From NCBI GenBank assembly GCA_026224825.1, contig JAMFRO010000022.1, forward strand, positions 1-64,000: a stretch of DNA of 64,000 nt. Reading direction: 5' to 3'. Positions 3,338 to 17,508 of this stretch are shown piece by piece (positions within the stretch are counted from its first letter, which is position 1; the number at the start of each line of letters is the position of its first letter). Made by a program: the position numbers and the translations under genes. The notes under the pieces were generated by a model that ran no database searches, had not been told where the DNA came from, and saw nothing but the letters and a program-made list of their open reading frames with translations. The DNA is from a bacterium (GTDB lineage: Bacteria; Pseudomonadota; Alphaproteobacteria; Acetobacterales; Acetobacteraceae).

Positions 3338-3374
3338 AAAGGGCCGCTTTTTGAAAAAAAGCATTAAAAACTTT
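3335..3374. repeat. Stop-codon-proximal dispersed hairpin repeat (argB copy, interrupted)
   Basis: Starting at the argB stop, AAAAAGGGCCGCTTTTTG is followed by AAAAAAAGC and AAAAACTTT. Similar copies begin at the metK stop (15586) and, reversed, at the moaB stop (8636-8660). The self-complementary GCCGCTTTTT/AAAAAAGC(GGC) could act as a terminator. In this copy the continuation TTTTG lies about 700 bp away at 4081-4085 because an element has inserted. Confidence 0.6.
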
Positions 3375-3397
3375 GGTAACAATATACTTGGCTAAGT
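3375..3397. repeat. Left terminal inverted repeat of element 1
   Basis: A 23-bp arm matching the reverse complement of 4053-4075 at 22 positions (the mismatch is position 6, C versus T). The first 19 bases match the ends of element 2 at 15 positions. Confidence 0.85.
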
Positions 3398-3444
3398 AAA
3401 TTCCTTCTCATCGCTAACATACGATCAAAAATCGGAGATATAGG

Positions 3445-4035
3445 GTGCAAAAACGTCGCGGACCGGTCACCGCTGCGGAATTAGCGGCACGACTTGAGGC
3501 GGACCCTGATTGGGTTGCTCGTCGGGATGCACGGGAGCGGGACCGGGCACAACGTGAACAACAGTCACATATTGAGCAAGCTCCCTTATTAAGTGATCTC
3601 CAGGCTATCGGAATCGTCGTCAATAATGTGTGGAATTTAGTGAACACGGCAACGCCGTATCCCCAAGCTTTGCCTATTCTTTTAAGGCACCTTTCGAAAC
3701 AGTACAGTGAGCGCACTTTGGAGGGGATTGCACGCGCCCTTGCGGTAAAAGATGCACGGCTTATCGCGTGGGATCATTTGATCGCCAGTCTCCGTAAAAA
3801 GCTCTTTCCAAAAGAGCCAAATGACGCGATTATGGTAGCAATAGCAGCCATGGCACGTCCAACAGACCTCGAATGTCTAATCGACCTAATAAAAGACGAG
3901 TCTCTTGGGTCCTGCCGTATCTTTCTGGTCCGCAATTTGATGCGCTCAAAGCGGCAGGAAGCTCGGAACGTGCTTTTATCCCTTCGAGATGACCCCGACT
4001 TGAAGAGAGAGATTGCTGCTCGGCTTAAGGTGTAA
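3445..4035 (+). CDS. Hypothetical HEAT-repeat-like protein, cargo of element 1
   Basis: A 196-residue protein with no signal peptide or membrane segment. The N-terminus (AELAARLEADPDWVARRDA followed by a charged Arg/Glu/Gln stretch) is probably helical or coiled. Residues of about 70-190 read as paired amphipathic helices (YPQALPILLRHL, LEGIARALAV, MVAIAAMARPTDLECLI), resembling HEAT/ARM solenoids. This resembles uncharacterised bacterial helical-repeat proteins, but no function can be assigned. The start is GTG with GGAG eight bases upstream. It is the only gene of the element, lies entirely within its inverted repeats, and is more AT-rich than neighbouring genes, all consistent with transfer. 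Confidence 0.75.
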   Translation: MQKRRGPVTAAELAARLEADPDWVARRDARERDRAQREQQSHIEQAPLLSDLQAIGIVVNNVWNLVNTATPYPQALPILLRHLSKQYSERTLEGIARALAVKDARLIAWDHLIASLRKKLFPKEPNDAIMVAIAAMARPTDLECLIDLIKDESLGSCRIFLVRNLMRSKRQEARNVLLSLRDDPDLKREIAARLKV

Positions 4036-4052
4036 CATGCAGATCGGCATTC

Positions 4053-4075
4053 ACTTAGCCAAGTATATTATTACC
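4053..4075. repeat. Right terminal inverted repeat of element 1
   Basis: Reverse complement of the left arm with one mismatch. It is followed immediately by the second copy of the 8-bp target duplication AAAACTTT (4076-4083). Confidence 0.85.
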
Positions 4076-4095
4076 AAAACTTTTGTTATTAATGA

Positions 4096-4275
4096 GTTAG
4101 TTGGTATTTTAACCGCTGCCTGTTAGATGGGCAGATCCCTTTCCGCATCTCCATCTTCCTGGCTTTGCCGATTGCCAGCATTGATGAACTGGTGCTCAGC
4201 GCGAAATTGCGCGAGATTGGGCATGAAGAGGGCGAGACCGCCCGCAGCGTGGAGCAACACCAGATACATGGCTGA
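4096..4275 (+). pseudogene. Gene remnant: C-terminal coding fragment upstream of arsC
   Basis: An open frame begins after a TGA at 4093 and ends at TGA 4273-4275, overlapping the arsC start. It reads as ordinary protein (for example FRISIFLALPIASIDELVL, then SAKLREIGHEEGETARSVEQ) but has no ATG, GTG or TTG with a ribosome site near its beginning. It is probably the tail of a gene whose 5' part has been lost between argB and arsC. The parent family is not recognised. The call rests on composition only. Confidence 0.35.
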
Positions 4276-4609
4276 AGTTACGATATATTTTAACCCGAAA
4301 TGTGGTACGGCGCGGAACACTCTGGCGCTGATCCGCGAGGCCGGGATTGAGCCCGAGATTATTGATTATATAAAAACCCCGCTGAGCCGGGCGCAGCTTG
4401 CCAAGCTCGCCAAACTCACCGGCGGCGCTGCTGTTCTGCTCCGCGAGAAAGAGGCTTTGGCCGTGGAGCTGGGGCTGAAGGGGGCTACCGATGCCGTGAT
4501 TCTGGACGCCATTGCCGCGCATCCTATCCTGCTCAACCGCCCGGTGGTGGTGACGCCCAAGGGCGCCAAACCCTGCCGGCCGGCGGAGCTGGTTAAGGAT
4601 TTGCTGTAA
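4268..4609 (+). CDS. arsC: Arsenate reductase, ArsC glutaredoxin-dependent (Spx/ArsC fold)
   Basis: A 113-residue ArsC-family protein. The N-terminus TIYFNPKCGTARNTL carries the nucleophilic Cys12, and the family signature HPILLNRPVVVTPKGAK is near the C-terminus. Family members reduce arsenate to arsenite with glutathione and glutaredoxin, although some ArsC-like proteins have other or unknown roles. The ATG at 4268 is chosen because family members begin just before this motif and an upstream in-frame extension (from 4127) lacks protein-like sequence. It is separate from the arsRPC operon 2 kb away, so it may be constitutive or have a different substrate. Confidence 0.82.
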   Translation: MAEVTIYFNPKCGTARNTLALIREAGIEPEIIDYIKTPLSRAQLAKLAKLTGGAAVLLREKEALAVELGLKGATDAVILDAIAAHPILLNRPVVVTPKGAKPCRPAELVKDLL

Positions 4610-4610
4610 C

Positions 4611-4808
4611 TTAAGCGCAGGCGGCGAAGTCAGGCTCGAAATGCGAAAAAACCTGCCGGGGAGCAGAAACAAAATCCAGCTCCCAGGGGCGGATGTCCGC
4701 GGGCTGGGCGGCGGCGAACAGCTCTGCCACCTGCGCGGCGCAGACCAAAGCCATGCAGAGGCAGCCGAAGATCGAGGCCAGGCCGGTGATGATGGTGATG
4801 TCGAACAT
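4611..4808 (-). CDS. Small hypothetical protein with one hydrophobic segment
   Basis: A 65-residue open frame starting at ATG 4808 with GAAGGA upstream. Residues of about 3-33 are hydrophobic (ITIITGLASIFGCLCMALV) and could form one membrane segment. The C-terminal half is polar with the stretch DIRPWELDFVSAPRQVF. It lies 23 bp downstream of the radical SAM gene on the same strand and may be co-transcribed. The family is not recognised. A longer frame upstream overlaps the radical SAM gene and is less likely. Confidence 0.45.
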   Translation of the reverse strand: MFDITIITGLASIFGCLCMALVCAAQVAELFAAAQPADIRPWELDFVSAPRQVFSHFEPDFAACA

Positions 4809-4831
4809 TGCTGTGGTTCCTTCTCTAAATC

Positions 4832-5938
4832 TTAGAACAGGCTCATTTGCGCCGGGGATGATTTGACGCTGGGGAGTGAAAACTGGCCGCAATCGAGGCT
4901 GGCGCCGCCGCCTTCCAGCCCGAATTGTTTGACGGCGCGGTTAAAGCGCTGGTGCAGCATATCGGCATAGGGGCCGGAGCCTGCGAAACGGGAGTGGTAA
5001 TCCGCGTCGTTGAGTTTGCCGGCGCGGCTCTGGCGGATCAGGCTCAGTACATGGGCGGCGCGGTCCGGCAGGTGTTTTTCCAGCCAGTCGGTGAACAGGG
5101 CACCCAGCTCATGCGGCAGGCGCAGCAGCACGGTATGTGCGCTTTGCGCCCCGGCTTTTGCGGCTTGTTCCAGAATGTTTTCCAATTCGGCATCGTTCAC
5201 CCCGGGGATCATCGGCGAGGCCATGACGCCGACTGGAATTCCGGCCTCTCGCAGTTCACGTAGCGCGGCCAGCCGCCGGGCGGGTGAGGCGGCGCGGGGT
5301 TCCATGGCGCGGGCCAGCACGGGGTCCAGCGTGGTGATGGAAATATGCACTTTCGCCAGGCCTTTGGCGGCCATGCGGCGCAGAATATCGGCATCGCGCA
5401 GCACGCCGGCGGATTTGGTGACGATGCCGACGGGGTTGCCGAAGCGTTCCAGCACTTCCAGCACGGAACGGGTGATGGAGAGGGTGCGTTCCACCGGCTG
5501 GTAGGGGTCGGTATTGGAGCCGAGGACGATGACGGAAGGTTTGTAACTGGCTTTAGAGAGTTCTTTTTCCAGCAATTTCGCGGCTTCGGGTTTGAAGACG
5601 ATCTTGGTTTCGAAATCCAGCCCGGCGGAGAAGCCGAGATAGGCGTGGCTGGGGCGGGCGAAGCAATAGATGCAGCCGTGCTCGCAGCCCCGGTAAGGGT
5701 TTACGCTTTGGGAGAAGGGGAGATCGGGTGAATCGTTACGGGCGATGATGGTGCGGGTGTTGTCGCGGATTAAACTGGTGCGGGGGCGGGTTTCTTCCTC
5801 GGGCAGGTCCCAGCCGTCATCGAAGGCTTCCACCCGCGCGGTTTCGAACCGGTTGGGTGGATTGACGGCGGTACCGCGCCCTTTGATGGCGCCCGGTATA
5901 TCTCTGGTCTTGACCTGCACTCGTGAAACTGCTGACAT
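4832..5938 (-). CDS. PA0069-family radical SAM protein (SplB-like)
   Basis: A 368-residue radical SAM enzyme. The [4Fe-4S]-binding motif is CEHGCIYC (Cys85, Cys89, Cys92), preceded by the family-typical SVNPYRGC and followed by FARPSHAY. IVLGSNTDPYQPVE is characteristic of the spore-photoproduct-lyase-like Rv2578c/PA0069 group. Substrate is unknown for this family. The ATG at 5938 is preferred over an upstream start at 5995 because GGAG lies eight bases before it and homologues begin near here. It runs opposite to arsC and away from the arsenic operon. Confidence 0.85.
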   Translation of the reverse strand: MSAVSRVQVKTRDIPGAIKGRGTAVNPPNRFETARVEAFDDGWDLPEEETRPRTSLIRDNTRTIIARNDSPDLPFSQSVNPYRGCEHGCIYCFARPSHAYLGFSAGLDFETKIVFKPEAAKLLEKELSKASYKPSVIVLGSNTDPYQPVERTLSITRSVLEVLERFGNPVGIVTKSAGVLRDADILRRMAAKGLAKVHISITTLDPVLARAMEPRAASPARRLAALRELREAGIPVGVMASPMIPGVNDAELENILEQAAKAGAQSAHTVLLRLPHELGALFTDWLEKHLPDRAAHVLSLIRQSRAGKLNDADYHSRFAGSGPYADMLHQRFNRAVKQFGLEGGGASLDCGQFSLPSVKSSPAQMSLF

Positions 5939-6047
5939 GTTCACGCTCCGTTCTGGCCCGATTAAGGGCAAAGCGGGATGTCTTGTCAAGAACAAAATGA
6001 GAACAAATTTTGCGGTTGGGGGTGGTGGTCTGGGGGCTGCCGGGTTT

Positions 6048-6110
6048 GACGTTATTAGATGTTTGCATGATGTTATTAGATGTTTGCACGACGATATTAG
6101 ATGTTTGTCA
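6048..6110. repeat. Three tandem 21-bp repeats upstream of arsR
   Basis: Three direct copies occupy 6048-6068, 6069-6089 and 6090-6110, with core TTAGATGTTTG and an overall unit GAYGNTATTAGATGTTTGCA. The 21-bp period equals two helical turns, so repeated protein-binding sites are possible. There are no spacers, so this is not a CRISPR. It lies about 100 bp upstream of arsR and 110 bp upstream of the divergent radical SAM gene. Confidence 0.85.
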
Positions 6111-6182
6111 TGACGAAATGGGGTTGATGGACAGTATGGGCTGGACCGGTCGCGGGTGATCCGGGTTTTCTATTGACCCCCT

Positions 6183-6210
6183 CCATATTTCCGTGAATAT
6201 GGAAATATGG
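6183..6210 (+). promoter_or_regulatory. Probable ArsR operator and promoter overlapping the arsR start codon
   Basis: A perfect 10-bp inverted repeat CCATATTTCC / GGAAATATGG (6183-6192 and 6201-6210, 8-bp spacer) covers the arsR ATG at 6207. A TTGACC at 6173-6178 is a good -35 box, which would place the -10 near 6195-6201 and the transcript start at or next to the ATG. This is consistent with ArsR autorepression and a leaderless message. Confidence 0.6.
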
Positions 6211-6557
6211 AAAAAATCGACGCCATTACCGCTCTTGCGGCACTCGCACAGGAAACGCGCCTCGATGTATTCCGGCTTTTGGTGCAGGCCGGGGCAAAGG
6301 GGGTGCCGGCGGGGCAGATTGCCGAGACGCTGAGCCTGCCCTCCGCCACGCTGTCCTTTCATCTGAACCAGCTCAAGAATGCCGGGCTTATCAATTTCCG
6401 CCGCGAAAGCCGGTCTTTGATTTATGCGGCTGAATATGCGGCCATGAACGGGCTGCTGGCGTATCTGACGGAGAATTGCTGCCAGGGGGGTAAGGCTGGT
6501 TGTGGCACCGTGGTTTGTGACACAGCCGTGCTCGGCAAGACGGAAGAGGCCGGTTGA
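6207..6557 (+). CDS. arsR: ArsR-family arsenic-responsive repressor
   Basis: A 116-residue winged-helix repressor of the ArsR/SmtB family. It begins with LAALAQETRLDVFRLLV and has the recognition-helix region SLPSATLSFHLNQLKNAGL at about 43-61. The classic As(III) site in the recognition helix (ELCVCDL) is absent. A C-terminal cluster Cys91-Cys92, Cys99 and Cys104 instead resembles the alternative As(III) sites of other ArsR subtypes. It is the first gene of arsR-aqpS-arsC and its stop overlaps the next start by one base. An inverted repeat covers its start codon, so autoregulation is likely. Confidence 0.9.
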   Translation: MEKIDAITALAALAQETRLDVFRLLVQAGAKGVPAGQIAETLSLPSATLSFHLNQLKNAGLINFRRESRSLIYAAEYAAMNGLLAYLTENCCQGGKAGCGTVVCDTAVLGKTEEAG

Positions 6558-7279
6558 TGCTGGATCGGGAATTGCTCCGGCGTGTTGCCGCGGAGGCTCT
6601 TGGCACCGGTTTTCTGGTGGCGACCGTGGTCGGCTCCGGCATCATGGCGCAGTCGCTCACGCATGATATAGCGCTCGCTTTGCTGGGCAACACCATTGCC
6701 ACGGGGGCGATGCTTGTTGTCCTCATCACAATTCTCGGCCCCATTTCAGGCGCGCATTTCAACCCGGCGGTGTCGCTCGTCTTCGCGGTGCGGCGTGTTC
6801 TGCCGCTGCGTGAGGCGGTGCTGTATATGGTGGCCCAGATCATCGGTGGTATCCTCGGCACAATGCTGGCGCAGTTGATGTTTGCGCTGCCGATCATCGA
6901 TGTTTCGATGAAAGCGCGTACCGGTGAGGCGCAATGGCTTTCGGAGTTCGTCGCGACATTCGGTTTGATCGCCACGATACTCGCGGGTATTCGTTTCGAA
7001 CCTAAGGCGGTTCCCTGGCTTGTCGGGCTTTATATAACCGCCGCCTATTGGTTTACCGCCTCCACCTCATTCGCCAATCCCGCCGTGGCCATCGCACGCT
7101 CCCTGACCAATAGTTTTTCCGGCATAAGTCCGGTTGATCTGCCCGGCTTTATCGCGGCTGAATTGGTTGGCGCCGTTGCGGCTTTGGCGGTGATGGGCTG
7201 GCTGCTTGCGCCGGTGGGGGCCGGTAAGATTCAGCCGCCGGCGGCGGCCGGCAAGATTCAGGAGGAGTCTACGCTATGA
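6557..7279 (+). CDS. aqpS: Aquaglyceroporin-type MIP channel, probable arsenite channel
   Basis: A 240-residue major intrinsic protein with six predicted membrane helices and two NPA boxes: HFNPAVSL (NPA 69-71) and FANPAVAIAR (174-176). Position between arsR and arsC matches the Sinorhizobium-type operon in which AqpS lets internally made arsenite leave down its gradient. Transport direction and substrate here are inferred from context. The ATG at 6557 overlaps the arsR TGA by one base and is preferred over the TTG codon just before it. The 3' end overlaps arsC by 4 bp, indicating translational coupling. Confidence 0.9.
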   Translation: MLDRELLRRVAAEALGTGFLVATVVGSGIMAQSLTHDIALALLGNTIATGAMLVVLITILGPISGAHFNPAVSLVFAVRRVLPLREAVLYMVAQIIGGILGTMLAQLMFALPIIDVSMKARTGEAQWLSEFVATFGLIATILAGIRFEPKAVPWLVGLYITAAYWFTASTSFANPAVAIARSLTNSFSGISPVDLPGFIAAELVGAVAALAVMGWLLAPVGAGKIQPPAAAGKIQEESTL

Positions 7280-7674
7280 GTGTTACGATCTATCATAACC
7301 CTGATTGTGGAACGTCGCGGAATACGCTGGCGATGATCCGTGCTACTGGCATTGAACCCGATATCATCGAGTATCTCAAAACACCGCCGAGCCGGGATAA
7401 ACTCGTTGAGTTGATCGCGGGTATGGGGATTCCGGTGCGTGAGCTGTTGCGTGAGAAGGGAACGCCTTATGCGGCGCTGGGTCTGGCTGATTTGAAATGG
7501 ACGGATGAGGAGTTGCTGGATTTCATGCTGGCACATCCAATTCTCATCAACCGGCCGATTGTCGTTACGCCGAAAGCTGTGCGGTTGTGCCGTCCATCTG
7601 AGCTGGTTCTGGATATCCTCGATCAGCGTCTTTCAGTGGATTTCATCAAAGAGGACGGCGACATTGTGAGGTGA
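7276..7674 (+). CDS. arsC: Arsenate reductase (glutaredoxin type)
   Basis: A 132-residue ArsC with TIYHNPDCGTSRNTL (nucleophile Cys11) and HPILINRPIVVTPKAVRLCR near 94-113. It reduces arsenate to arsenite using glutathione/glutaredoxin. It is the last gene of arsR-aqpS-arsC and overlaps aqpS by 4 bp. Compared with the ArsC at 4268 it has a normal-length C-terminal tail and operon context, so it is the likelier resistance enzyme. No ArsB or Acr3 efflux pump follows, so the channel would have to export the product. Confidence 0.93.
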   Translation: MSVTIYHNPDCGTSRNTLAMIRATGIEPDIIEYLKTPPSRDKLVELIAGMGIPVRELLREKGTPYAALGLADLKWTDEELLDFMLAHPILINRPIVVTPKAVRLCRPSELVLDILDQRLSVDFIKEDGDIVR

Positions 7675-7713
7675 CCTGCGACGCGTACTTCGCAGGCCAC
7701 ACCAGGCACCAAT

Positions 7714-8613
7714 TCAATCGTTGCTGTGCAGGCTGGCGTTCAGCCCACCCCAGCGGGCGGTATTGGTTTCCAGAACCTCGACAACGCCGGTCTGGCTGTT
7801 TCTGCGGAACAACAGCCCCGGCCGGCCCGAGAGGGTTTTGGCGGCGACGATATTTCCATCGGGGGTGCGGACTTTCGTACCGGCGGTGACATAAAGACCG
7901 GCCTCGACGATGCAGTCGTCACCGAGGGAAATGCCGATGCCCGCGTTGGCGCCGAGCAGGCTGTTCTGGCCGATGGCATTTTTGGTTTTGCCGCCGCCGG
8001 ACAATGTGCCCATGATGGAGGCGCCCGCACCCACATCGGAGTTCTTGCCAACTGTCACGCCGGGGGTGATGCGGCCTTCCACCATTGATTCGCCGAGGGT
8101 GCCGGCGTTGAAGTTGACAAAGCCCTCATGCATCACCGTGGTTCCGGCTGCCAGATGCGCGCCGAGCCGCACACGGTCGGCATCGGCGATCCTGACGCCC
8201 TCGGGTATGACGTAATCGGTCATGCGCGGAAATTTATCGACAGAGAACACGTTGAGATGGTGATGATCCGTGGCGAGGCGGTCGCGCAGCTCATCGACCT
8301 TTCCCGGCAATACCGGCCCGGCCGAGGTCCATGCAACATTCGCGAGCAGGCCGAAGATGCCGTCGAGATTAAGCTCATTCGGTTTGACGGATCGTTCCGA
8401 GAGGAGATGCAGGCGCAACCAGGCGTCTTCTGTTGAAACCGGTGCGGCGTCGAGAGAGGTTATCGTCACATCGATGAAATCGCCTGTGATCAGGCCGAGT
8501 TTTTCCGCGAGGCAGCCTCGGCGTTTTCCGGGTGCTGAAAGAGGAAACCAGACATCGATTGTCTTTCCGGTTTCGGCGTCACGATATCTGTGACCTGTCC
8601 GCTGGATATTCAT
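7714..8613 (-). CDS. dapD: Tetrahydrodipicolinate N-succinyltransferase, actinobacterial/Pseudomonas class
   Basis: A 299-residue left-handed beta-helix acyltransferase. The hexapeptide-repeat region spans roughly 150-260, with VMHEGFVNFNAGTLG and VGAGASIMGTLSGGGKTKNA. These are characteristic of the long DapD class known from Mycobacterium and Pseudomonas, which makes N-succinyl-2-amino-6-ketopimelate in lysine/peptidoglycan synthesis. A second, E. coli-class dapD lies beside dapE at 41328, so this copy is redundant or specialised. It runs downstream of moaB on the same strand and is convergent with arsC. Confidence 0.85.
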   Translation of the reverse strand: MNIQRTGHRYRDAETGKTIDVWFPLSAPGKRRGCLAEKLGLITGDFIDVTITSLDAAPVSTEDAWLRLHLLSERSVKPNELNLDGIFGLLANVAWTSAGPVLPGKVDELRDRLATDHHHLNVFSVDKFPRMTDYVIPEGVRIADADRVRLGAHLAAGTTVMHEGFVNFNAGTLGESMVEGRITPGVTVGKNSDVGAGASIMGTLSGGGKTKNAIGQNSLLGANAGIGISLGDDCIVEAGLYVTAGTKVRTPDGNIVAAKTLSGRPGLLFRRNSQTGVVEVLETNTARWGGLNASLHSND

Positions 8614-8635
8614 AAAAACCTCATGGCTCAGGGAA

Positions 8636-8660
8636 TAAAAGTTTTTGCGCCGCTTTTTTA
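8636..8660 (-). repeat. Stop-codon-proximal dispersed hairpin repeat (moaB copy)
   Basis: On the minus strand, TAAAAAAGCGGCGCAAAAAC then TTTTA begins at the moaB stop codon. It matches the second half of the repeat that begins at the metK stop (15586) and the interrupted argB copy at 3335. Confidence 0.55.
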
Positions 8661-9194
8661 CTTCAGATGCTCTTTGAGCCTGGGCAGCAGCTCGGCCAGG
8701 TTGCAGGGGCGGTGGCGGGAATCCAGTTGGTATTTCAGGATCTCGTCCCAGCCGTCTTTTACGGCACCTGTGGAGCCGGGGAGGGCGAACATGTAGGTGC
8801 CGTCCGCCACGCCGCCGAGGGCGCGGGATTGCATGGTGGAGGTGCCGATTTTGCTGAAGGAGATCCAGCGGAAGAGTTCGCCGAAGCCTTCGATTTCTTT
8901 TTCCATGACGCTTTTGAACGCTTCGGGGGTGACGTCGCGCCCGGTTATGCCGGTGCCGCCGGTGGTGATGATGACGTCTACATCGGGCGCTGCGATCCAG
9001 GCGCGGAGTTGGGTGGTGATGGCGGGCACATCGTCGCGGATGATGGTGCGGGCTGCGAGGATGTGGCCGGCGGATGAGATGCGGGCGGCGAGGGTGTCGC
9101 CGGAGGTGTCGTTGGTGAGGTTGCGCGTGTCTGAGATGGTGGCGATGGCGATGCGGATGGGGAGGAAAATCGCGCTTTCGTCGATGCGGCTCAC
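8658..9194 (-). CDS. moaB: Molybdenum cofactor biosynthesis protein B
   Basis: A 178-residue MoaB/MogA-fold protein acting in molybdopterin adenylylation or a related step of Moco synthesis. The conserved binding loop IITTGGTGITGRDVTPEA is at about 75-92, and FALPGSTGAVKDGWDEIL is near 136-153. The sequence starts IRIAIATISDTR as in the family. It lies 3 bp downstream of the lytic transglycosylase gene on the same strand, so the two are probably co-transcribed despite unrelated roles. No other Moco gene is visible in the window. Confidence 0.92.
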   Translation of the reverse strand: MSRIDESAIFLPIRIAIATISDTRNLTNDTSGDTLAARISSAGHILAARTIIRDDVPAITTQLRAWIAAPDVDVIITTGGTGITGRDVTPEAFKSVMEKEIEGFGELFRWISFSKIGTSTMQSRALGGVADGTYMFALPGSTGAVKDGWDEILKYQLDSRHRPCNLAELLPRLKEHLK

Positions 9195-9197
9195 GTT

Positions 9198-10853
9198 CTA
9201 GTTCGCGCTGGCGATGGCGGTGCCGGCGGGCATCAGCTCGGGGAAACTGCCGGCGGCGAGCTGGTTCAGGCTTTGCGGCTGAACGCCGATTTCCTCGGCG
9301 TAGAGCCAGCTATCGGCCATGACCTGGCGCACGAAGCGGCGGGTTTCGTTATTGGAGATGGTCTCGATGAACAGCAGCGGGTCTGAGCCGTCCTGCAATT
9401 GGGAATACCAGGCGGCGGCGGCGTTGGGGCCGGCGTTGTAGCTGGCGATGATGGCGAGCAGGTTGTTGTTGATGCCGGGCTGCTGGCCGAGGAAGGTTAG
9501 ATACGCCTGGCCGTAGGCGAGGCTGGCGGAGGGGTCTGAAAGATCGCCGGAGACGCCGGTCATGCGGTGCATGGTGGCGGCGGTGACGGGCATCATCTGC
9601 ATGAGGCCGCGCGCGCCGCAGCGCGATACGGCATGGGCGTTGAAGCCGGATTCGGTGCGGGCCAGCGCGTAGATGAGCGAGGGGTCCAGGGTGAAGCCGC
9701 CGGTGGGGTGGATGGCGGGCAAAGGCAGATGCGCGCCGGCGATCTCGTCCACGGGCGAGACCTGCGTGTTGGCGATGGCGATGGCGACATCGGCGAGGCC
9801 AGCGCGGGCGGCGACGGCCATGACGGCGCGGGAGAGGTCGGGGTTGCCCTGCATCTGCGGCCAGAGGGCGCGCAGGTTGGCGGCGGCCTGGTCTGTGAGG
9901 CCGAGTTGGAGCTGTTCGAAGGCGAGATGGCCCTGGGGGGTGGCGTCCACGGCGGTGATATCGGCTTCCGTGAGCGTGCCGGCGAAGCCTACGGCGGCGA
10001 AGCCCTGGCCGAGCAGGCGGCCGGCGAGCATGCCGTAGAAGGTGTCTGGTGCGGCGGCGGCCTGGTGCAGGAGGTCCAGGTATTGGGTGGGCTGCATCTG
10101 GCGGAGGGCGACGCGGGCGGACCAGAACTGGCTGGCGGCGCGGTCGTCATCGGAGATGCCGTTGAGCGAGCCGGCGGCGGTGAAATCGGCGGCGGCGGTG
10201 GTGAGGTCGTTATTCTGCCAGGCTGTTAGGCCGGCTGCGAAGCGGTTGTGCCAGGCGGCGCCATCCGGGGCGGCGACGGCGCGGGCGGCTGAGCCGGGGA
10301 TCATCGTCTCCTCGGGCAGGAGGGAGAGCTGCGGGGCGGCCGGCATGTTGGCGCGGGACATTTTGTGCTGCATCAGCCCGTAGATGGCCGTGGCCTCGGG
10401 CTCGCTGGAATATTCAGCCCACCAGGCGATCAGCTCGGCAGGGGTGGTGATGTAGCCGGGGTTCAAATAACGCGCAGCCAGGATGGAGCCCATGGCGGAG
10501 GGGTCCGACAGCCGCGCTTCCATGTCGCCGGCCTCGGTGGTGTGGCCCGCGGCCTGGAGCTGCTGGATGCGCTGGTAGAGCGCGATATCCGACGGGGACA
10601 GCGGCTGGGGCAATATGATTTCGACATTCCCGGCCGGCGCATTGCGCGGCACGGCATAAGCCACACTATCCCCGTTGAGTGCGCTAAGGGGCGCTTGGGG
10701 GGGCATGGTCGTTCCCTGGCCTTGTCCCTGATCCGGGGACTTCGCTGCCGCACTGGTGGGGACCACCAGGGTGAGAGCGAAAATGGACACCGAGGCAAAC
10801 ATTGCCAGGCGGCTCACATTCAGGCGGGAGAGCGTTTGAGAGGCTCCTCGCAT
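9198..10853 (-). CDS. Lytic murein transglycosylase (Slt family)
   Basis: A 551-residue exported protein. The N-terminus has a signal-like hydrophobic stretch (FASVSIFALTLVV) ending near TSAAAKS. A long alpha-helical, Ala/Gln-rich superhelical region resembles the Slt70 U-domain. The C-terminal SLT domain contains the catalytic glutamate in ALARTESGFNAHAVS followed by CGARGLMQMMPVTA, and SYNAGPNAA. It would cleave peptidoglycan glycan strands to 1,6-anhydroMurNAc ends in the periplasm. It precedes moaB by 3 bp. Confidence 0.9.
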   Translation of the reverse strand: MRGASQTLSRLNVSRLAMFASVSIFALTLVVPTSAAAKSPDQGQGQGTTMPPQAPLSALNGDSVAYAVPRNAPAGNVEIILPQPLSPSDIALYQRIQQLQAAGHTTEAGDMEARLSDPSAMGSILAARYLNPGYITTPAELIAWWAEYSSEPEATAIYGLMQHKMSRANMPAAPQLSLLPEETMIPGSAARAVAAPDGAAWHNRFAAGLTAWQNNDLTTAAADFTAAGSLNGISDDDRAASQFWSARVALRQMQPTQYLDLLHQAAAAPDTFYGMLAGRLLGQGFAAVGFAGTLTEADITAVDATPQGHLAFEQLQLGLTDQAAANLRALWPQMQGNPDLSRAVMAVAARAGLADVAIAIANTQVSPVDEIAGAHLPLPAIHPTGGFTLDPSLIYALARTESGFNAHAVSRCGARGLMQMMPVTAATMHRMTGVSGDLSDPSASLAYGQAYLTFLGQQPGINNNLLAIIASYNAGPNAAAAWYSQLQDGSDPLLFIETISNNETRRFVRQVMADSWLYAEEIGVQPQSLNQLAAGSFPELMPAGTAIASAN

Positions 10854-10966
10854 GGTTAAAGCCCGTACAACAATATTTGCATGAGATGCAATAGCTACTG
10901 GCGATACAAATCTCGGTTATTGAGACGTTTTGTGCCGATTCAGCAGGTTAACACTGTGTGTATCGA

Positions 10967-11761
10967 TCACGATTTCGTGAGAATCATGGATTCCAGCCAT
11001 TCGCGGAGCTGCAAAAGATCCTGCCATGACTCGGATTTAGCCATGGGGGTGCGTAATAAATAGGCTGGGTGATAGCTTGGGAGGCAAGGTAGTCCCGAGT
11101 CCATTCCCGTAATGTTTGCCTCGCGCCAGGTGCCGCGCAGGCGGCGGATTCCGGCGGCTCCGGCCTCCGGCAGCAGGGTTTTGGTGGCAACCGCCCCCAG
11201 AGTGAGCAGGCCGCGCGGGCGGATGAGGGCGATGTGGCGGTGCAGAAAGGGCAGGCAGAGGGCGATTTCGGCATCTGACGGTGTGCGGTTGCCGGGGGGG
11301 CGCCAGGGCACGGTGTTGATGATGCGGGTGTTGCCGCGATTTAACCCGATGCTGGCGAGCATACGGTCCAAAAGCTGGCCGGCGGCGCCCACGAAGGGTT
11401 TTCCGGCGCGGTCTTCCTCGGCCCCTGGGGCCTCGCCGATGATGATGAGGGGGGCGTTATCCGCGCCGTCGGCGAAGACGAGCTGGGTGGCGGTGTCGCG
11501 CAGGGCGCAGCCGGTGAAGCTGGTGAGGGCGGCTTTCAGCTCGTCCAGGCTTTGGCAGGCGGCGGCGAGGGCGGCGGCTTCCGCTGGGCCGGCGGGCAGG
11601 GCGGGGGCTGGTTTGGCGGTTGGGCGCGGGGCGGTTGGGCGCCCGGCGGGGGGGAGGGCTGCCACCGGCGGGGCGGCGGCGCGGCGGTCCTGCGGGGCGT
11701 CCAGCAACGCCTCGTCGGCTCCCCATTCATATTGCAGGCGCAAGGCCTCCACAGCGTCCAT
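10967..11761 (-). CDS. Uracil-DNA glycosylase, family 4-like
   Basis: A 264-residue protein with an N-terminal Pro/Ala-rich linker and a C-terminal UDG superfamily domain. Visible motifs are IIIGEAPGAEEDRAGKPFVG (motif 1 with downstream GAAGQLLDRML), NTVPWRPPGNRTPS and PSYHPAYLLR. Family members excise uracil from deaminated DNA and usually carry an iron-sulfur cluster; here FTGCALRDTA holds one of the conserved cysteines. The ATG at 11761 is chosen because the longer frame to 11872 would overlap the start of the divergent ETF-QO gene. Confidence 0.88.
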   Translation of the reverse strand: MDAVEALRLQYEWGADEALLDAPQDRRAAAPPVAALPPAGRPTAPRPTAKPAPALPAGPAEAAALAAACQSLDELKAALTSFTGCALRDTATQLVFADGADNAPLIIIGEAPGAEEDRAGKPFVGAAGQLLDRMLASIGLNRGNTRIINTVPWRPPGNRTPSDAEIALCLPFLHRHIALIRPRGLLTLGAVATKTLLPEAGAAGIRRLRGTWREANITGMDSGLPCLPSYHPAYLLRTPMAKSESWQDLLQLREWLESMILTKS

Positions 11762-11853
11762 GGGCTGAGTATAGCGGGGTTCGGGCCGCCCGCTATTCCC
11801 CCTGGCGGGTTTATTGAATAAAGCAGGCTGGCAATTCAGTTGGGGGAAGAGAG

Positions 11854-13494
11854 ATGTCAGAGGAGCTGTCACCGCGCGAGGCGATGGAATTTGATGTGCT
11901 GGTGGTTGGTGCCGGGCCGGCTGGGCTGTCGGCCGCCATCAAGCTCAAGCAGCTTAACCCGGAGCTGTCTGTTTGTGTGGTGGAGAAAGGCTCTGAGGTT
12001 GGGGCGCATACGCTCTCGGGGGCGGTTATCGAGACGCGGGCGCTGAAGGAGCTGTTTCCGGAGATCGATGTTGGGCTGATCCCGCTGGCGACGGCGGTGA
12101 CGGACGACAAGTTCATTTTCCTGACCGAGACCAAGGCCTTCACCTCGCCGATTAACCCGCCGCAGATGAACAACCATGGCAATTACATTGTCTCGCTTGG
12201 CAATGTGGTGCGCTGGTTGGGGCAGCAGGCTGAGGAGCTGGGGGTGGAGATTTATCCTGGCTTTGCCGCTGCGGAGCTGCTCATCGAGGATGGCAGGCTG
12301 GTTGGTGTGGCCACTGGCGATATGGGCATTGGCAAGGATGGTGAGCCTACTGATAATTATCAGCGGGGCATGGAGCTGCGGGCTACTTATACTATATTAG
12401 GTGAGGGCTGCCGTGGCTCGCTCACGAAACAACTGGAGACGCAGTTTGGCCTGCGGCAGGATGCGGACCCGCAGACCTATGGCATTGGCATTAAGGAACT
12501 TTGGGAGGTCAAGCCTGAGAACTTCAAAAAGGGCCTGGCCGTTCACACGATAGGCTGGCCGCTGAAGAGCGACACCTATGGTGGGGCTGCGATCTATCAT
12601 TTCGGCGAGAATCTGGTCTCCTTCATCTTCGTGGTCGGGCTGGATTATACCAACCCGTATCTCTCTCCCTTCCAGGAGATGCAGCGCTACAAAACCCACC
12701 CCGCCATCGCGCCGATTTTTGAGGGTGCCAAACGCATCTCCTATGGTGCGCGCGCGCTCAATGAAGGTGGTTATCAGAGCTTGCCGAAGCTCACCTTCCC
12801 CGGCGGCGTGCTCATAGGCTGTGCCGCCGGTACGCTTAACGTGCCGAAGATTAAAGGTACGCATACCGCCATGAAATCCGCCATGGTGGCGGCCGAGGCG
12901 ATTGCCGAAGCTTTGGCCGGGGATAAACCCGCTGAAGTGATCAGCTATGCCGAAAAACTGAAAGCAAGCTGGGTCTATTCGGAGCTGCATTCCGTCCGCA
13001 ACATCCGCCCCGGCTTCGCCAAATGGGGGCTGTATGGCGGCGTCATCAACGGCGCGGTCGAGGCCTTTATCACGCGGGGTAAGTCGCCGTGGACGCTGCA
13101 TAACCACCATGGCGATAACGAAACGCTGAAGAAGGCGAAGGATTCTACCCCCATCGTCTATCCCAAGCCCGATGGTAAGCTCACCTTCGACCGGCTGTCC
13201 TCGGTGTTTCTGTCCAACACCAACCATGAGGAAAACCAGCCGGCGCATCTCACCCTGCTGAACCCCGCCATCGCCATCGACATAAACTATAAAGAGTATG
13301 CGAGCCCTGAGACCCGCTATTGCCCGGCTGGGGTGTATGAGATCGTGGGTGAGGAAACCAACGAGCCGCGCTTGCAGATTAATGCGCAAAACTGCGTCCA
13401 CTGTAAGACCTGCGACATCAAGGATCCTACCCAGAATATCAACTGGGTGGTGCCGGAAGGTGCTGGCGGCCCGAATTACCCGGGTGGGATGTAA
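11854..13494 (+). CDS. Electron transfer flavoprotein-ubiquinone oxidoreductase (ETF-QO)
   Basis: A 546-residue membrane-associated flavoprotein that passes electrons from ETF (acyl-CoA and amine dehydrogenases) to ubiquinone. The N-terminal FAD motif [15 protein letters not shown] is near residues 15-29. A C-terminal ferredoxin-like segment with RYCPAGVYE and [13 protein letters not shown] supplies the [4Fe-4S] ligands. Length fits the family. A GGGGAAGAG site precedes the ATG. The gene stands alone; etfA/etfB are not in the window. Confidence 0.95.
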
Positions 13495-13536
13495 CGCCGG
13501 GAGGCCGGGTTTTGTATCTGCCGGGGAAAATGTTTA

Positions 13537-13547
13537 TGCAGTGCACA
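13537..13547. promoter_or_regulatory. Motif TGCAGTGCACA upstream of dapB, shared with the dapD promoter
   Basis: The 11-mer TGCAGTGCACA lies 14 bp before the dapB start. Its reverse complement lies at 41276-41286, between the -35 and -10 region of the second dapD gene. The core TGCA-N-TGCA is palindromic. A shared operator is possible but unproven. Confidence 0.3.
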
Positions 13548-13572
13548 TGACTGTTCGCACATGACTATTCGC
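13545..13572 (+). repeat. 14-bp tandem duplication covering the dapB start codon
   Basis: ACATGACTGTTCGC (13545-13558) is followed directly by ACATGACTATTCGC (13559-13572). The duplication creates two ATG codons. The upstream one (13547) reads five codons to a stop, so the real dapB start is the downstream ATG at 13561. Confidence 0.85.
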
Positions 13573-14322
13573 ATTGGAATCGCCGGGATTACCGGCCGTA
13601 TGGGTATTTATCTGGCCGAGGAGGCCGCCGCCGCCGCGACGCTGGCCGGCGGCACCAGCCGTTCGCGCCCGGTGGGGGGGAGCGCGCCGCATTTTGCCGA
13701 CATTACGGCCCTGGCGCGCGAGTCGGATGTGGTGATCGACTTCACCCATGCCAGCACGGTGCGTGAGCATGCCGCCGCTCTGGCCGCCACGGAAACCCCC
13801 TGGGTGCTGGGCACCACCGGCTACGGGGATGAGGAGCAGGCGGCTGTGGAGGCGGCGGCGAAGACGATCCCCGTGATTGCCGCGGCTAATTTTTGCACCG
13901 GGGTTAATTTGCTCCTGCTGTTGGCTGAAAAATTGGGCCATGCGCTGGAGGCCAGCCAGTTCGATGCCGAGATTTTGGAAATGCACCACCGCCAGAAGGT
14001 GGATGCCCCTTCCGGCACGGCCCTGGCGCTGGGCCGGGCGGTTGCCGCCGGGCGTGGGGTAAGGCTGGAGGATGTGATGGTCTCGGGCCGTGATGGCCAT
14101 ACCGGGCCGCGCCAGGATGGCGAGATTGGCTTTGCCACTTTGCGCGGCGGGCAGATTATTGGTGAGCATGAGGTGAGTTTTACGGCGGGGGATGAGCAGA
14201 TCACCCTCTCGCACCGTGCCTTTGACCGCCGGGTGTTTGCCTCCGGCGCCGTGCGCGCGGCTTTGTGGCTGCACCCGCAGCCGGCCGGGCTGTATTCCAT
14301 GCGCGATTATCTGCGCCTGTAG
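13561..14322 (+). CDS. dapB: 4-hydroxy-tetrahydrodipicolinate reductase
   Basis: A 253-residue NAD(P)H-dependent reductase of the diaminopimelate/lysine pathway. The nucleotide-binding motif GIAGITGRMGIYL is at the N-terminus, VIDFTHAST follows, and the catalytic motif EMHHRQKVDAPSGTA lies near 140-154. Length fits DapB. The start codon sits in a 14-bp tandem duplication and no clear ribosome site is visible, so translation initiation here is unusual. metK follows after 78 bp. Confidence 0.93.
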   Translation: MTIRIGIAGITGRMGIYLAEEAAAAATLAGGTSRSRPVGGSAPHFADITALARESDVVIDFTHASTVREHAAALAATETPWVLGTTGYGDEEQAAVEAAAKTIPVIAAANFCTGVNLLLLLAEKLGHALEASQFDAEILEMHHRQKVDAPSGTALALGRAVAAGRGVRLEDVMVSGRDGHTGPRQDGEIGFATLRGGQIIGEHEVSFTAGDEQITLSHRAFDRRVFASGAVRAALWLHPQPAGLYSMRDYLRL

Positions 14323-14356
14323 TTTCCTGTCCTTTTTCAGCCTATTGACCCGGCCG

Positions 14357-14375
14357 CCCGGATACGTCATCCGGG
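14357..14375 (+). promoter_or_regulatory. GC-rich hairpin between dapB and metK
   Basis: A perfect 7-bp stem CCCGGAT / ATCCGGG around loop ACGTC lies 25 bp before the metK ATG. There is no T-run, so it is not a standard terminator. No consensus of a SAM riboswitch class was recognised. It may be a dapB mRNA end or a metK leader structure. Confidence 0.4.
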
Positions 14376-14400
14376 CCGCCTGAACTTTTGGGGTTTTACC

Positions 14401-15588
14401 ATGCGTGATCGCGGAGAATTTCTGTTCACTTCGGAATCCGTCTCGGAGGGGCATCCGGATAAGGTTGCCGACCGTCTCTCGGATACCGTGGTCGATGCCT
14501 ATCTGGCCGCCGACCCCTATGCGCGCGTGGCCTGCGAGACGCTGGTGACGACCAACCGCATCATCCTGGCCGGCGAAGTGCGCGGGCCGGAGAGCATCAC
14601 CAAGGAATATCTGGCGCATCTGGCCCGGTTGGCGGTGCAGGATATCGGCTATGACCAGGAAGGCTTCTCCTGGCGCAATGCTGAGGTGTCCGTGCATCTG
14701 CATGCGCAATCGGCGCATATTGCCCAGGGCGTGGATGCCAAGGGCGACAAGGACGAGGGGGCCGGCGACCAGGGCATCATGTTCGGTTATGCTACCACTG
14801 AGACCGAGGCGCTGATGCCGGCGCCGATTTTCTATTCGCACCTTATCCTGCGCCGTATTTCCGAGCTGCGCCGCGCCGCCAACAGCCAGGTGGCCGGGCT
14901 GCTGCCGGATGCCAAGAGCCAGGTGACGCTGAAATATGTGGACGGCAAGCCGGTGGGGGCGACCTCGGTGGTGGTGTCCATCCAGCATGCGCCCGGGCTG
15001 ACGCCGGCGCATGTGAAGGAGCTGCTGCGGCCGATTGTGAAGGCGGCACTCCCCGAGGGCTGGATGCCGCCGGACCATGAATTCTATGTGAACCCGACCG
15101 GGATTTTTGAGATCGGCGGCCCGGATGGCGATTGCGGGCTGACCGGGCGCAAGATTATCGTGGACACATACGGCGGGGCTGCCCCGCATGGCGGCGGTGC
15201 GTTCTCGGGTAAGGACCCGACCAAGGTGGACCGCTCGGCTGCTTATGTGTGCCGGTATCTGGCTAAGAATGTGGTGGCTGCTGGGCTGGCTGAGCGTTGC
15301 ACGCTGCAGCTCTCTTATGCGATTGGCGTGAGCCAGCCGCTCTCGCTTTATGTGGATTTGCACGGCACCGGCAGGGATGTGGAAGAGGGCAGGCTGGAGC
15401 GCACCCTGCGCGAGCTGGTGAACCTGACGCCGCGTGGGATTCGTGAGCATCTGCAGCTTAACCGGCCGATTTACGTGCCGACCTCTGCTTTTGGGCATTT
15501 TGGGCGGACGCCGGATGCTGAGTTGGGGACGTTTACGTGGGAGAAGACGGATCTGGTGGGTTCGCTGAAATCGGCCTTCGGCCGGTAA
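14401..15588 (+). CDS. metK: S-adenosylmethionine synthetase
   Basis: A 395-residue enzyme making SAM from methionine and ATP. The N-terminus has [20 protein letters not shown], the conserved hexapeptide region [12 protein letters not shown] lies at about 120-131, and [16 protein letters not shown] near 242-257. The next segment [19 protein letters not shown] contains the glycine-rich loop. It ends at a hairpin repeat and is followed by trmB. Confidence 0.96.
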
Positions 15589-15630
15589 AAAGCAGCCGCT
15601 TTTTGAAAAAAGCGGCGCAAAAACTTTTGC
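15586..15630. repeat. Stop-codon-proximal dispersed hairpin repeat (metK copy)
   Basis: From the metK stop: TAAAAAGCAGCCGCTTTTTG, then AAAAAAGCGGCGCAAAAACT and TTTGC. GCCGCTTTTT pairs with AAAAAAGCGGC and could terminate metK transcription. This is the intact form of the repeat that element 1 interrupts at 3374/4076 and that is partly present after moaB. Confidence 0.65.
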
Positions 15631-15690
15631 TCTTGGGGGCATGGGGTGTGGTAAGGCCGCAGCCCGTGCCCCTTGTGTTTTGGATGTGTT

Positions 15691-16359
15691 ATGAGTGTTA
15701 AGCCGCCGCCTGATCGACTCTATGGACGCCAGAAAGGCAAAAGCCTGCGGCCGCGCCAGGAATGGCTGCTGGCGGCGTTTTTGCCGCGGCTGAGCTGGCC
15801 TGCGGTGCCGTTTGGTATTGTCCCGCGCGAGACCTGGCTGGAAGTTGGCTTTGGCGGCGGGGAGCATGCTTTTGAGCTGGCGGATAAAAACCCGGATGTG
15901 GGGTATATCGCGGCGGAAGTGTTTGAGACGGGGATTTGCTCGCTGCTGTCGCGCATTGCGCCGGACCATGTGGAGCAGCCGGAGCCGCCGGCGAATTTGC
16001 GGCTGTTTACCGATGATGCGCGGCCTTTGCTGCGTGGGATGGCGGATGGGGCGCTCTCAAAACTGTTTTTGATGTTTCCTGATCCTTGGCCCAAGGCGCG
16101 GCATGCCAAGCGGCGGTTTGTGCACCCGGAGCTGGTGGCGGAAGTGGCGCGGGCGTTGCGGGTTGGCGGGGAGTGGAGGATTGCTTCGGATGATCCGACG
16201 TATCAGGCGTGGACGGATGAGGTGCTGGGGGGGCAGGATGTTTTTACTGTGTCGCGGGTGACCGAGAGGCCGGAGGGGTGGCCGGGGACGCGGTATGAGG
16301 CGAAGGCGGTGGTGGCGGGGCGGGTGCCTGTGTATTGGTCGCTGATCCGGAAATCTTGA
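15691..16359 (+). CDS. trmB: tRNA (guanine-N7-)-methyltransferase
   Basis: A 222-residue class I SAM methyltransferase that makes m7G46 in tRNA variable loops. Diagnostic motifs are EVGFGGGEHAFELA for SAM binding, GYIAAEVFETG, and the TrmB-specific FPDPWPKARHAKRRFVHPE. The ATG at 15691 is chosen over an in-frame TTG 18 bp upstream because family members start close to the RLYGRQKGK motif. It follows metK by about 100 bp. Confidence 0.94.
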   Translation: MSVKPPPDRLYGRQKGKSLRPRQEWLLAAFLPRLSWPAVPFGIVPRETWLEVGFGGGEHAFELADKNPDVGYIAAEVFETGICSLLSRIAPDHVEQPEPPANLRLFTDDARPLLRGMADGALSKLFLMFPDPWPKARHAKRRFVHPELVAEVARALRVGGEWRIASDDPTYQAWTDEVLGGQDVFTVSRVTERPEGWPGTRYEAKAVVAGRVPVYWSLIRKS

Positions 16360-16487
16360 CTGTGTACATGGTTGTGGATACATAGTGAAATACGTCTGGG
16401 ACCATGCCAAGCGGGACAGCAATCTCGCCAAGCACGGGCTGGATTTTATGGACGGCATTATGCTGTTCGATGGACGGCCTATTTTTA

Positions 16488-16509
16488 GGGAACTATATAT
16501 TTGACTCCC
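16488..16509. repeat. Left terminal inverted repeat of element 2
   Basis: A 22-bp arm pairing with 17029-17050 (two mismatches). It abuts the target copy TATTTTTA at 16480-16487. Confidence 0.88.
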
Positions 16510-16606
16510 TACTGTCCAATGAAACAAGAAAAGCAAGATGGATGCCCAACTCAGAGGTTTACATTGGTGGTTGCTGCTCAGCGATGCCTGGAATACAGAA
16601 CTTGCC

Positions 16607-16996
16607 ATGCGACTATTACCAATCCTCGGTAATCTGTGCGTAGTTTTTGTCGTGGTTTGCACTTTAGCGGTGCCTGCGTACGCTCATGACCTGCTGCCGC
16701 TTCATAGAGGCATTTATGTAGAAGCGACGGTGCCCTGCAAGGTGGCGTCAAATGCAACGATGCTCTCCTATTGGGGAAATACAAATGGCATCAATGACGC
16801 CGAGGACGGCTGCACGATAAAAAATTATCATATTCAGGGGGCTGTCTACGATTTATCCCGCACCTGCAAAGAGATTCAGTCGGGCGGAGAATATGAAGAT
16901 GATCAGAACCTTACGGTAATTGGTTACGAAAAATTTGTGATGTTCGGTCAGATGTATCGATACTGCGGACCGAGCGTAGAGTCGTTTTTGCCGTAG
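16607..16996 (+). CDS. Hypothetical secreted protein, cargo of element 2
   Basis: A 129-residue protein with a clear Sec signal peptide: hydrophobic core NLCVVFVVVCTLAV followed by PAYA and a probable cleavage before HDLLP. The mature part, about 100 residues, is acidic and holds four cysteines (in VPCKV, DGCTI, RTCKE and RYCGP), so one or two periplasmic disulfides are likely. It has no recognised domain. The ATG at 16607 is chosen because it starts the signal peptide; an upstream in-frame ATG at 16538 would bury it. The gene lies wholly inside the inverted repeats of element 2 and is more AT-rich than neighbouring genes. Confidence 0.65.
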   Translation: MRLLPILGNLCVVFVVVCTLAVPAYAHDLLPLHRGIYVEATVPCKVASNATMLSYWGNTNGINDAEDGCTIKNYHIQGAVYDLSRTCKEIQSGGEYEDDQNLTVIGYEKFVMFGQMYRYCGPSVESFLP

Positions 16997-17028
16997 TTGC
17001 TCCGATAAGCTGACAGTTCAGAGCCACA

Positions 17029-17050
17029 GGGACTCAAGTATATAGTTCCC
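17029..17050. repeat. Right terminal inverted repeat of element 2
   Basis: A 22-bp arm, GGGACTCAAGTATATAGTTC plus CC, followed by the second TATTTTTA target copy (17051-17058). Confidence 0.88.
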
Positions 17051-17187
17051 TATTTTTACCTATGCCTCGTCACGAAACGGGGAAGACCGGTTTGTAACGG
17101 TGGGGCTGGTTGATGGGCTTATGGTGGCTCTGATTTGGCTCCGCCGTGAAGCTGAAATCCGGGTCATATCGTTAAGGAGAGCGCGAA

Positions 17188-17508
17188 ATGGCGAAAGAGC
17201 GGATTATGGACGGTGGAACGCTTGAGGAGATAAAGGCGCGTCTGGTGGCCGGTGAGAGCCGCTCGGACTGGGCGCGTGCGCGCGCCATGTCGCAGGAAGA
17301 GGTCGAGCGCCTGGCCGATGAGGAAGATGGGCCGTTGCCGGAGGGGTGGGAGAAGACCATCGTGCTCGGTGTACCGGAGCCGAAACAGGATGTGCATATA
17401 AGGCTGGACCCGATGGTGTTGCGCTGGTTCAAGGAACAAGGGCCGGGGTATCAGACGCGGATTAATGCGGTGCTGCGGGCGTTTGTGGAGGCGCGGGTGA
17501 AGGGGTAG
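17188..17508 (+). CDS. brnA: BrnA-family antitoxin
   Basis: A 106-residue protein. The C-terminal ribbon-helix-helix region VHIRLDPMVLRWFKEQGPGY then QTRINAVLRAFVEA is typical of BrnA antitoxins, which bind the BrnT ribonuclease and repress their own promoter. The acidic middle (EEVERLADEEDGPLPEGWE) is the probable toxin-binding part. It overlaps the 3' end of the broken brnT by 38 bp. With the toxin interrupted, BrnA is an orphan; its upstream promoter is now separated from it by the 563-bp element. Confidence 0.85.
   Translation: MAKERIMDGGTLEEIKARLVAGESRSDWARARAMSQEEVERLADEEDGPLPEGWEKTIVLGVPEPKQDVHIRLDPMVLRWFKEQGPGYQTRINAVLRAFVEARVKG

Follow-up and report, generated by a model that had tools for sequence, protein, structure and literature searches.

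Transposase-less gene cassettes with IS1595-type ends in a genome of the Acetobacteraceae: probable mobile insertion cassettes

Introduction

The stretch of DNA analysed here (the window; 64,000 nucleotides, positions 1 to 64,000 of contig JAMFRO010000022.1, GenBank assembly GCA_026224825.1, from an acidophilic member of the Acetobacteraceae) contains two short insertions, E1 and E2, each of which encloses a gene between terminal inverted repeats and is flanked by an exact 8-bp target site duplication (TSD). Since neither insertion encodes a transposase, the locus raises the question of how such elements are moved and to which class they belong. A previous model reading of the letters alone (the sequence-only reading) had described them as a single family of vehicles resembling miniature inverted-repeat transposable elements (MITEs), mobilised in trans and possessing ends that were not recognised. 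The results presented below indicate that E1 and E2 are very probably mobile insertion cassettes (MICs), in which a passenger gene lies between 22-23-bp ends of the IS1595 family and which, lacking a transposase of their own, would be moved in trans by a matching IS1595 transposase.

Results

The assembly harboring the window (G000; 4.27 Mb in 108 contigs, 94% complete) was searched with the end pattern. With no more than two mismatches allowed, the pattern matched 15 times in forward and 14 times in reverse orientation, compared to 3 and 0 for the reversed pattern used as control. Ten inverted pairs, 0.4-2.4 kb apart, were detected among these matches and all ten (10/10) revealed an exact 8-bp duplication. 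Such pairs were also repeatedly found in relatives. The case that no other copies of the two insertions exist, which the sequence-only reading had named as a refutation, is excluded. Nine of the ten pairs delimit transposase-less elements of 465-922 bp (TSD exact in 9/9), whose G+C content of 45-52% contrasts with 55-63% in the flanks. The tenth element (contig C70, 2,344 bp) contains, besides a second open reading frame (ORF) without a family match, a gene for a transposase of 300 amino acids with an IS1595 DDE domain (PF12762, 3e-33) and a zinc ribbon (PF12760, 4e-15). Since this element encodes an IS1595-family transposase, the previously unrecognised ends can be assigned to the IS1595 type, which had been among the candidate families.

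Within the window itself, the end pattern matched six times at up to three mismatches, while shuffled sequences gave a mean of 1.4 matches and none of 100 shuffles reached six. The four matches without any mismatch are both ends of E1 and E2. The positions of the insertions, their exact duplications and the matches between their terminal repeats were all confirmed (Table 1); the agreement between the ends of E1 and E2, given before as 15 of the first 19 positions, amounts to 14 or 15, depending on the ends that are compared. ORF and family scans revealed one substantial ORF per element (196 amino acids in E1, 152 in E2), neither of which is a transposase, in accordance with the previous description.

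All ends possess a common core like GGNRAYWATATAYTTGR, followed by CTAAG or CTCAG (E1 and most others), by TCCC (E2, L028 and others) or by CACCACAA and variants thereof (C70 element). In relatives, transposase-bearing elements were located via similarity to the C70 transposase. They include elements with CTAAG (L034), CTCAG (L045, L097, L100) and TCCC ends (L036, L042), and an exact 8-bp TSD was found for the transposase-bearing L027, L034, L036, L042, L052, L054, L056, L066, L072, L097 and L100. Transposase-bearing partners of the kind expected by the sequence-only reading are present, and the cassette ends remain similar in comparison with complete elements. From 35 loci, 23 transposases were extracted and 20 of them were used for a tree (dropped were L065, L073 and L046, the last being at the same place as L069). 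In this tree, all five CTAAG/CTCAG rows clustered together with good support (100/99), as did the two TCCC rows (100/100), while the remaining end types did not form single groups. Judged by these sequences, E1 (CTAAG) and E2 (TCCC) are assigned to different end subfamilies, with transposases in separate clades. The interpretation given by the sequence-only reading is supported overall, with the refinement that the two insertions represent two end subfamilies, which differ in transposase clade and target. Within the subfamilies, L045, L097 and L100 share the transposase half (72-73% over 0.9-1.0 kb), and so do L036 and L042 (80% over 0.96 kb); the remainder of the elements differs. The passenger of L036 (G017:C26) is an N6 DNA methylase with a TaqI-like C-terminal domain, that of L042 (G030:C21) an HNH endonuclease.

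The two subfamilies also differ in their targets. AAAACTTT or AAAGTTTT was the target of 14 of the 22 counted CTAAG/CTCAG elements and of none of the 12 elements with other ends (p=2.4e-4; p=6e-4 with the tandem array described below counted once). This count comprises 34 rows and omits L033, L043, L045 and L051, which lack a duplication of 7 or 8, L049 and L110, each of which has one poor end, as well as single ends (L046, L047, L048, L112 and others); L092 (7/8, other target) is likewise outside the count, its inclusion giving 14/23. In G000, five of the nine cassettes (E1, L021, L022, L024, L025) are located at AAAACTTT and adjoin an intergenic repeat with the pattern AGCTTTTTGAAAAAAGCTGCACCA-AAAACTTT-TG, and the layout of the E1 target repeat recurs at other sites, occupied and free. 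Unoccupied repeat copies of this genome (20 fetched of 37 matches) contained CTTTTTGAAAAAAG in the hairpin in 18 of the 20 cases. For long hairpins at two target-repeat sites, the predicted folding energies were -45 and -54 kcal/mol and thus much lower than those of shuffled sequences; for the short repeat, a 34-nt version reached a z value of -5.6 and a 45-nt version only -1.4. In G116, which belongs to another genus, the transposase-bearing CTCAG element L097 and the cassette L098 are each located at a AAAGTTTT that precedes TTGGTTCTTTTTTTCAAAAAAGAAC. This common type of site is the closest link between a transposase and a cassette that was found. The terminator-like intergenic repeat that ends in AAAACTTTTG, one copy of which lies at window 15614-15630, occurs commonly in the own genome and in the genus and may merit a description of its own.

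Empty sites had been anticipated in related strains. In G026, the site of L022 is present and uninterrupted, while for L024 the match, free of any element, comprises the right flank and approximately 20 bases on the left side of the junction, so that the expectation was clearly confirmed in one case and partly in another. The same genome harbors three tandem cassettes of 307, 645 and 808 bp (L040) downstream of a gene taken for lexA by eye. Neighboring cassettes are separated by a single AAAACTTT, and the right end of the middle cassette, being degenerate, was positioned manually. It is conceivable that insertion re-creates the AAAACTTT site for the next cassette. By junction pattern, no second array was detected in 38 genomes of the genus or in 397 sampled genomes of the family, a sample that excludes G026. 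Three further junction matches at three mismatches in the 397 genomes look like chance; the reversed control hit G050, G077, G252, G295, G308 and G330. Otherwise, the search gave only two TCCC-like ends back to back in G000 (L030, approximately 1972-2024; G000:C105:107677-107718) with 8 bp (TAACTAAT) between them. Outer partners were not detected within about 2 kb of this pair, which may be a remnant or a product of joined ends.

Further copies occur in sister species, the named members of which belong to Acidocella, and in other Acetobacteraceae. With the own genome included in each case, an end match (up to one mismatch) was present in 27 of 38 genomes of the genus, where single matches may be due to chance, a related transposase (E<=1e-10) in 21 of 38, and a CTAAG-type end (up to two mismatches) in 15 of 397 sampled family genomes, representing 10 of 102 genera. 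Among the fetched loci outside G000, eleven cassettes have exact duplications (L032, L037, L038, L039, the three of L040, L041, L098, L099, L116) and four a 7/8 duplication (L035, L044, L092, L108), while three both-ended cassettes show less than 7/8 (L033, L043, L051). One cassette of 498 bp was found at full length in G012, G034 (92% identical) and G003 (75%), with differing flanking octamers. The ratio of nonsynonymous to synonymous substitution rates (dN/dS) of its gene was 0.19 and 0.24 in the two comparisons of distant copies and 0.53 between the close copies, where changes are few; the cargo protein is conserved. A more distant homologue of this gene resides in cassette L099 (G213), where dS is saturated. 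The DNA of E1 did not match plasmid sequences. Outside the family, L082 and L088 (Halalkalibacter, Bacillaceae) each contain one exact CTAAG-type end whose partner end was not found; these ends may be chance matches or belong to a distant IS1595 element.

To describe the cargo, 26 ORFs from 25 cassettes were scanned, a set without L092 and L098, and no transposase family was detected among them. Clear families were a YecR-like lipoprotein (L023, E=2e-23) and an STY0301-family protein (L033, E=4.5e-20); other matches were weak, e.g. HEAT_2 for E1 (E=1e-4, below the cut-off) and DUF4126 for L021. That each element carries exactly one cargo gene applies to most cassettes, including E1 and E2, but L021 may hold two short genes. 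The protein of E1 has homologues in G407 (49%) and G142 (35%), the sole two besides itself in the more sensitive search of 397 family genomes. A peptide-pattern search of genome contigs did not confirm any relative of the E1 cargo, and the loci of the two homologues, as fetched, contained no end of the E1/E2 type at up to three mismatches. The homologue in G407 (L179, 177-2221) is enclosed by a pair of 17-nt imperfect inverted repeats about 2 kb apart, which are unlike the cassette ends. Two ideas on the function of ends and cargo were dismissed. A promoter within the ends, with TTGRCT as -35 box, is not indicated by the best -10 matches, which averaged 2.52 of 6 positions upstream of the cargo and 2.68 downstream, and none of which reached 5/6 or more (n=25). 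An anti-phage role of the cargo found no support, as only two single PADLOC matches (E 0.007 and 0.0098) were obtained, while PHROGs gave no match.

The features of the window are compiled in Table 1. At window 16385-17508, E2 interrupts a brnT-like gene, the left piece of which matches BrnT_toxin below the cut-off (E=7.8e-6); a brnA-like antitoxin gene (E=1.6e-15) is located downstream.

Table 1. Features of E1, E2 and their target sites in the window
Feature	Position	Strand	Basis or remark
E1 target: terminator-like intergenic repeat with hairpin GCTTTTTGAAAAAAAGC followed by AAAAACTTT	3340..3374	+	3' of argB-like ORF
E1 left target duplication AAAACTTT	3367..3374	.	same octamer at 4076-4083
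E1 (701 bp), cassette of IS1595 type with CTAAG ends, no transposase	3375..4075	+	ends, TSD, further copies
E1 left terminal inverted repeat	3375..3397	+	22/23 match to right end
E1 cargo gene, 196 amino acids, weak HEAT-repeat match	3445..4035	+	Pfam HEAT_2 E=1e-4, below family cut-off; homologues
E1 right terminal inverted repeat	4053..4075	-	pairs with left end
E1 right target duplication AAAACTTT	4076..4083	.	same octamer as left
Free target core GGCGCAAAAACTTTTGC, 2 mismatches	15614..15630	+	AAAACTTT site at 15620
E2 left target duplication TATTTTTA	16480..16487	.	equals right copy
E2 (563 bp), cassette of IS1595 type with TCCC ends, no transposase	16488..17050	+	ends, TSD, related copies
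E2 left terminal inverted repeat	16488..16509	+	20/22 match to right end
E2 cargo gene, 152 amino acids, no family found	16538..16996	+	family scans
E2 right terminal inverted repeat	17029..17050	-	pairs with left end
E2 right target duplication TATTTTTA	17051..17058	.	equals left copy

Discussion

The agreement of end types, transposase clades and targets suggests that the cassettes are mobilised in trans, and they probably travel by means of the borrowed transposase of a matching jumping element. A transposase of the IS1595 family, with DDE domain and zinc ribbon, would be supplied by an element with matching ends and bind both ends of a cassette, which would then be inserted with an 8-bp stagger. 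The CTAAG/CTCAG group prefers AAAACTTT. Such sites often border terminator-like intergenic hairpins, a position in which insertion is probably of little cost to the host. Since AAAACTTT is duplicated on insertion, further cassettes could stack there in tandem. New cargo would probably be acquired by exchange of the part of an element that does not encode the transposase.

Several observations weigh against this interpretation. No transposition was seen, and the G000 assembly yielded only a transposase of the C70 type but none of the CTAAG/CTCAG or TCCC type when searched with a profile of four such transposases. As the profile found only the C70 copy, the mobiliser of E1 and E2 must be missing from the assembly, have been lost, or never have been resident. 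Among the putative partners, L045 has no clean TSD and the transposase ORF of L100 is short (197 amino acids). Eight of the 22 counted CTAAG/CTCAG elements occupy other targets. The E1 locus in G026 lacks the element, but its intergenic sequence is replaced, and the site comparisons for L021 and L025 gave no information.

The lack of a matching transposase in the own assembly would also fit elements that had once been complete. The cassettes could be internal-deletion relics of passenger-carrying IS1595 elements which lost their transposase part after insertion and are now immobile; passengers next to the transposase are indeed found in the transposase-bearing elements. However, such an origin would require a separate deletion in place at nine loci, each time leaving both ends and the TSD intact. 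Moreover, the full-length 498-bp cassette in three species with different duplications, and the array of three cassettes on one target, fit movement of the cassettes as such, which renders an origin by deletion improbable. Single small orphan genes and a tandem array are, on the other hand, reminiscent of gene cassettes in integron-like systems that use a tyrosine recombinase. We regard this as highly improbable, although no search was aimed at attC sites or an integron integrase, since the cassettes share perfect 8-bp TSDs and terminal inverted repeats with DDE-transposase elements. Such duplications and repeats are not known as features of attC cassettes. Least probable of all, to a degree that can practically be neglected, is a chance origin of the inverted repeats in AT-rich intergenic DNA. 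Ends and targets are indeed AT-rich, but the 15 and 14 matches compared to 3 and 0 in the reversed control, the exact TSDs of all ten pairs (10/10) and the shuffles speak against it.

MICs consist of a passenger gene between the ends of an insertion sequence (IS), lack a transposase, are flanked by a TSD and presumably depend on the matching IS for their movement (PMC3129680, PMC3281130), the cited example being MIC231 with IS231 (IS4 family) of the Bacillus cereus group (PMC2266710). The IS1595 family is characterized by an 8-bp TSD, ends starting with GG and passenger genes (PMC8101967, PMC3129680). MICs with a matching IS and IS1595 elements with passengers are already in print (PMC3129680, PMC2266710, PMC3281130, PMC8101967). 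The cassettes described here resemble MIC231 in the passenger between IS ends, the missing transposase and the target duplication, but differ in their IS1595-family ends and partner, in the many unrelated cargos within one genome, in the preference for terminator-like repeats and in the tandem array. Their ends are those of elements with an IS1595 transposase, the TSD has the length typical of the family, and the 25 scanned cassettes contain passenger genes without a transposase. With IS1595 elements that carry passengers, they share GG-starting ends, the 8-bp TSD, passengers and, in the partners, the DDE_Tnp_IS1595 domain and the zinc ribbon; what separates them is that the nine cassettes of the own genome are wholly devoid of a transposase. 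Like MITEs, they are short and non-autonomous and have terminal inverted repeats and a TSD. Yet a short non-coding interior common to the copies was not observed: the interiors hold ORFs that are mostly unrelated, and between most elements the alignment is confined to the ends. Hence, the term MIC is more appropriate than the MITE-like label of the sequence-only reading. With integron cassettes, the likeness is confined to single orphan genes and to tandem stacking in one relative, whereas the present cassettes end in terminal inverted repeats and have duplicated their targets, as elements of a DDE transposase do. In open-licence literature, searched mostly at the level of titles and abstracts, neither IS1595-type MICs in Acidocella nor tandem MIC arrays came up, and a review of MITEs (PMC10969869) contained none of the terms looked for.

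A broader picture, which we consider possible but rather doubtful, is that a family of IS1595 ends circulates orphan genes singly among acidophilic Acetobacteraceae, docks them at terminator-like intergenic repeats and, since the docking site is duplicated on every insertion, can build tandem arrays, thus forming a transposase-driven counterpart of the integron. Apart from this picture, the cassettes illustrate how small orphan genes can spread singly by means of a common transposase family, and the docking sites together with the tandem array suggest a simple and testable route to the stacking of cassettes without an integrase. For genome annotation, the ends and the target motif directly flag such accessory genes.

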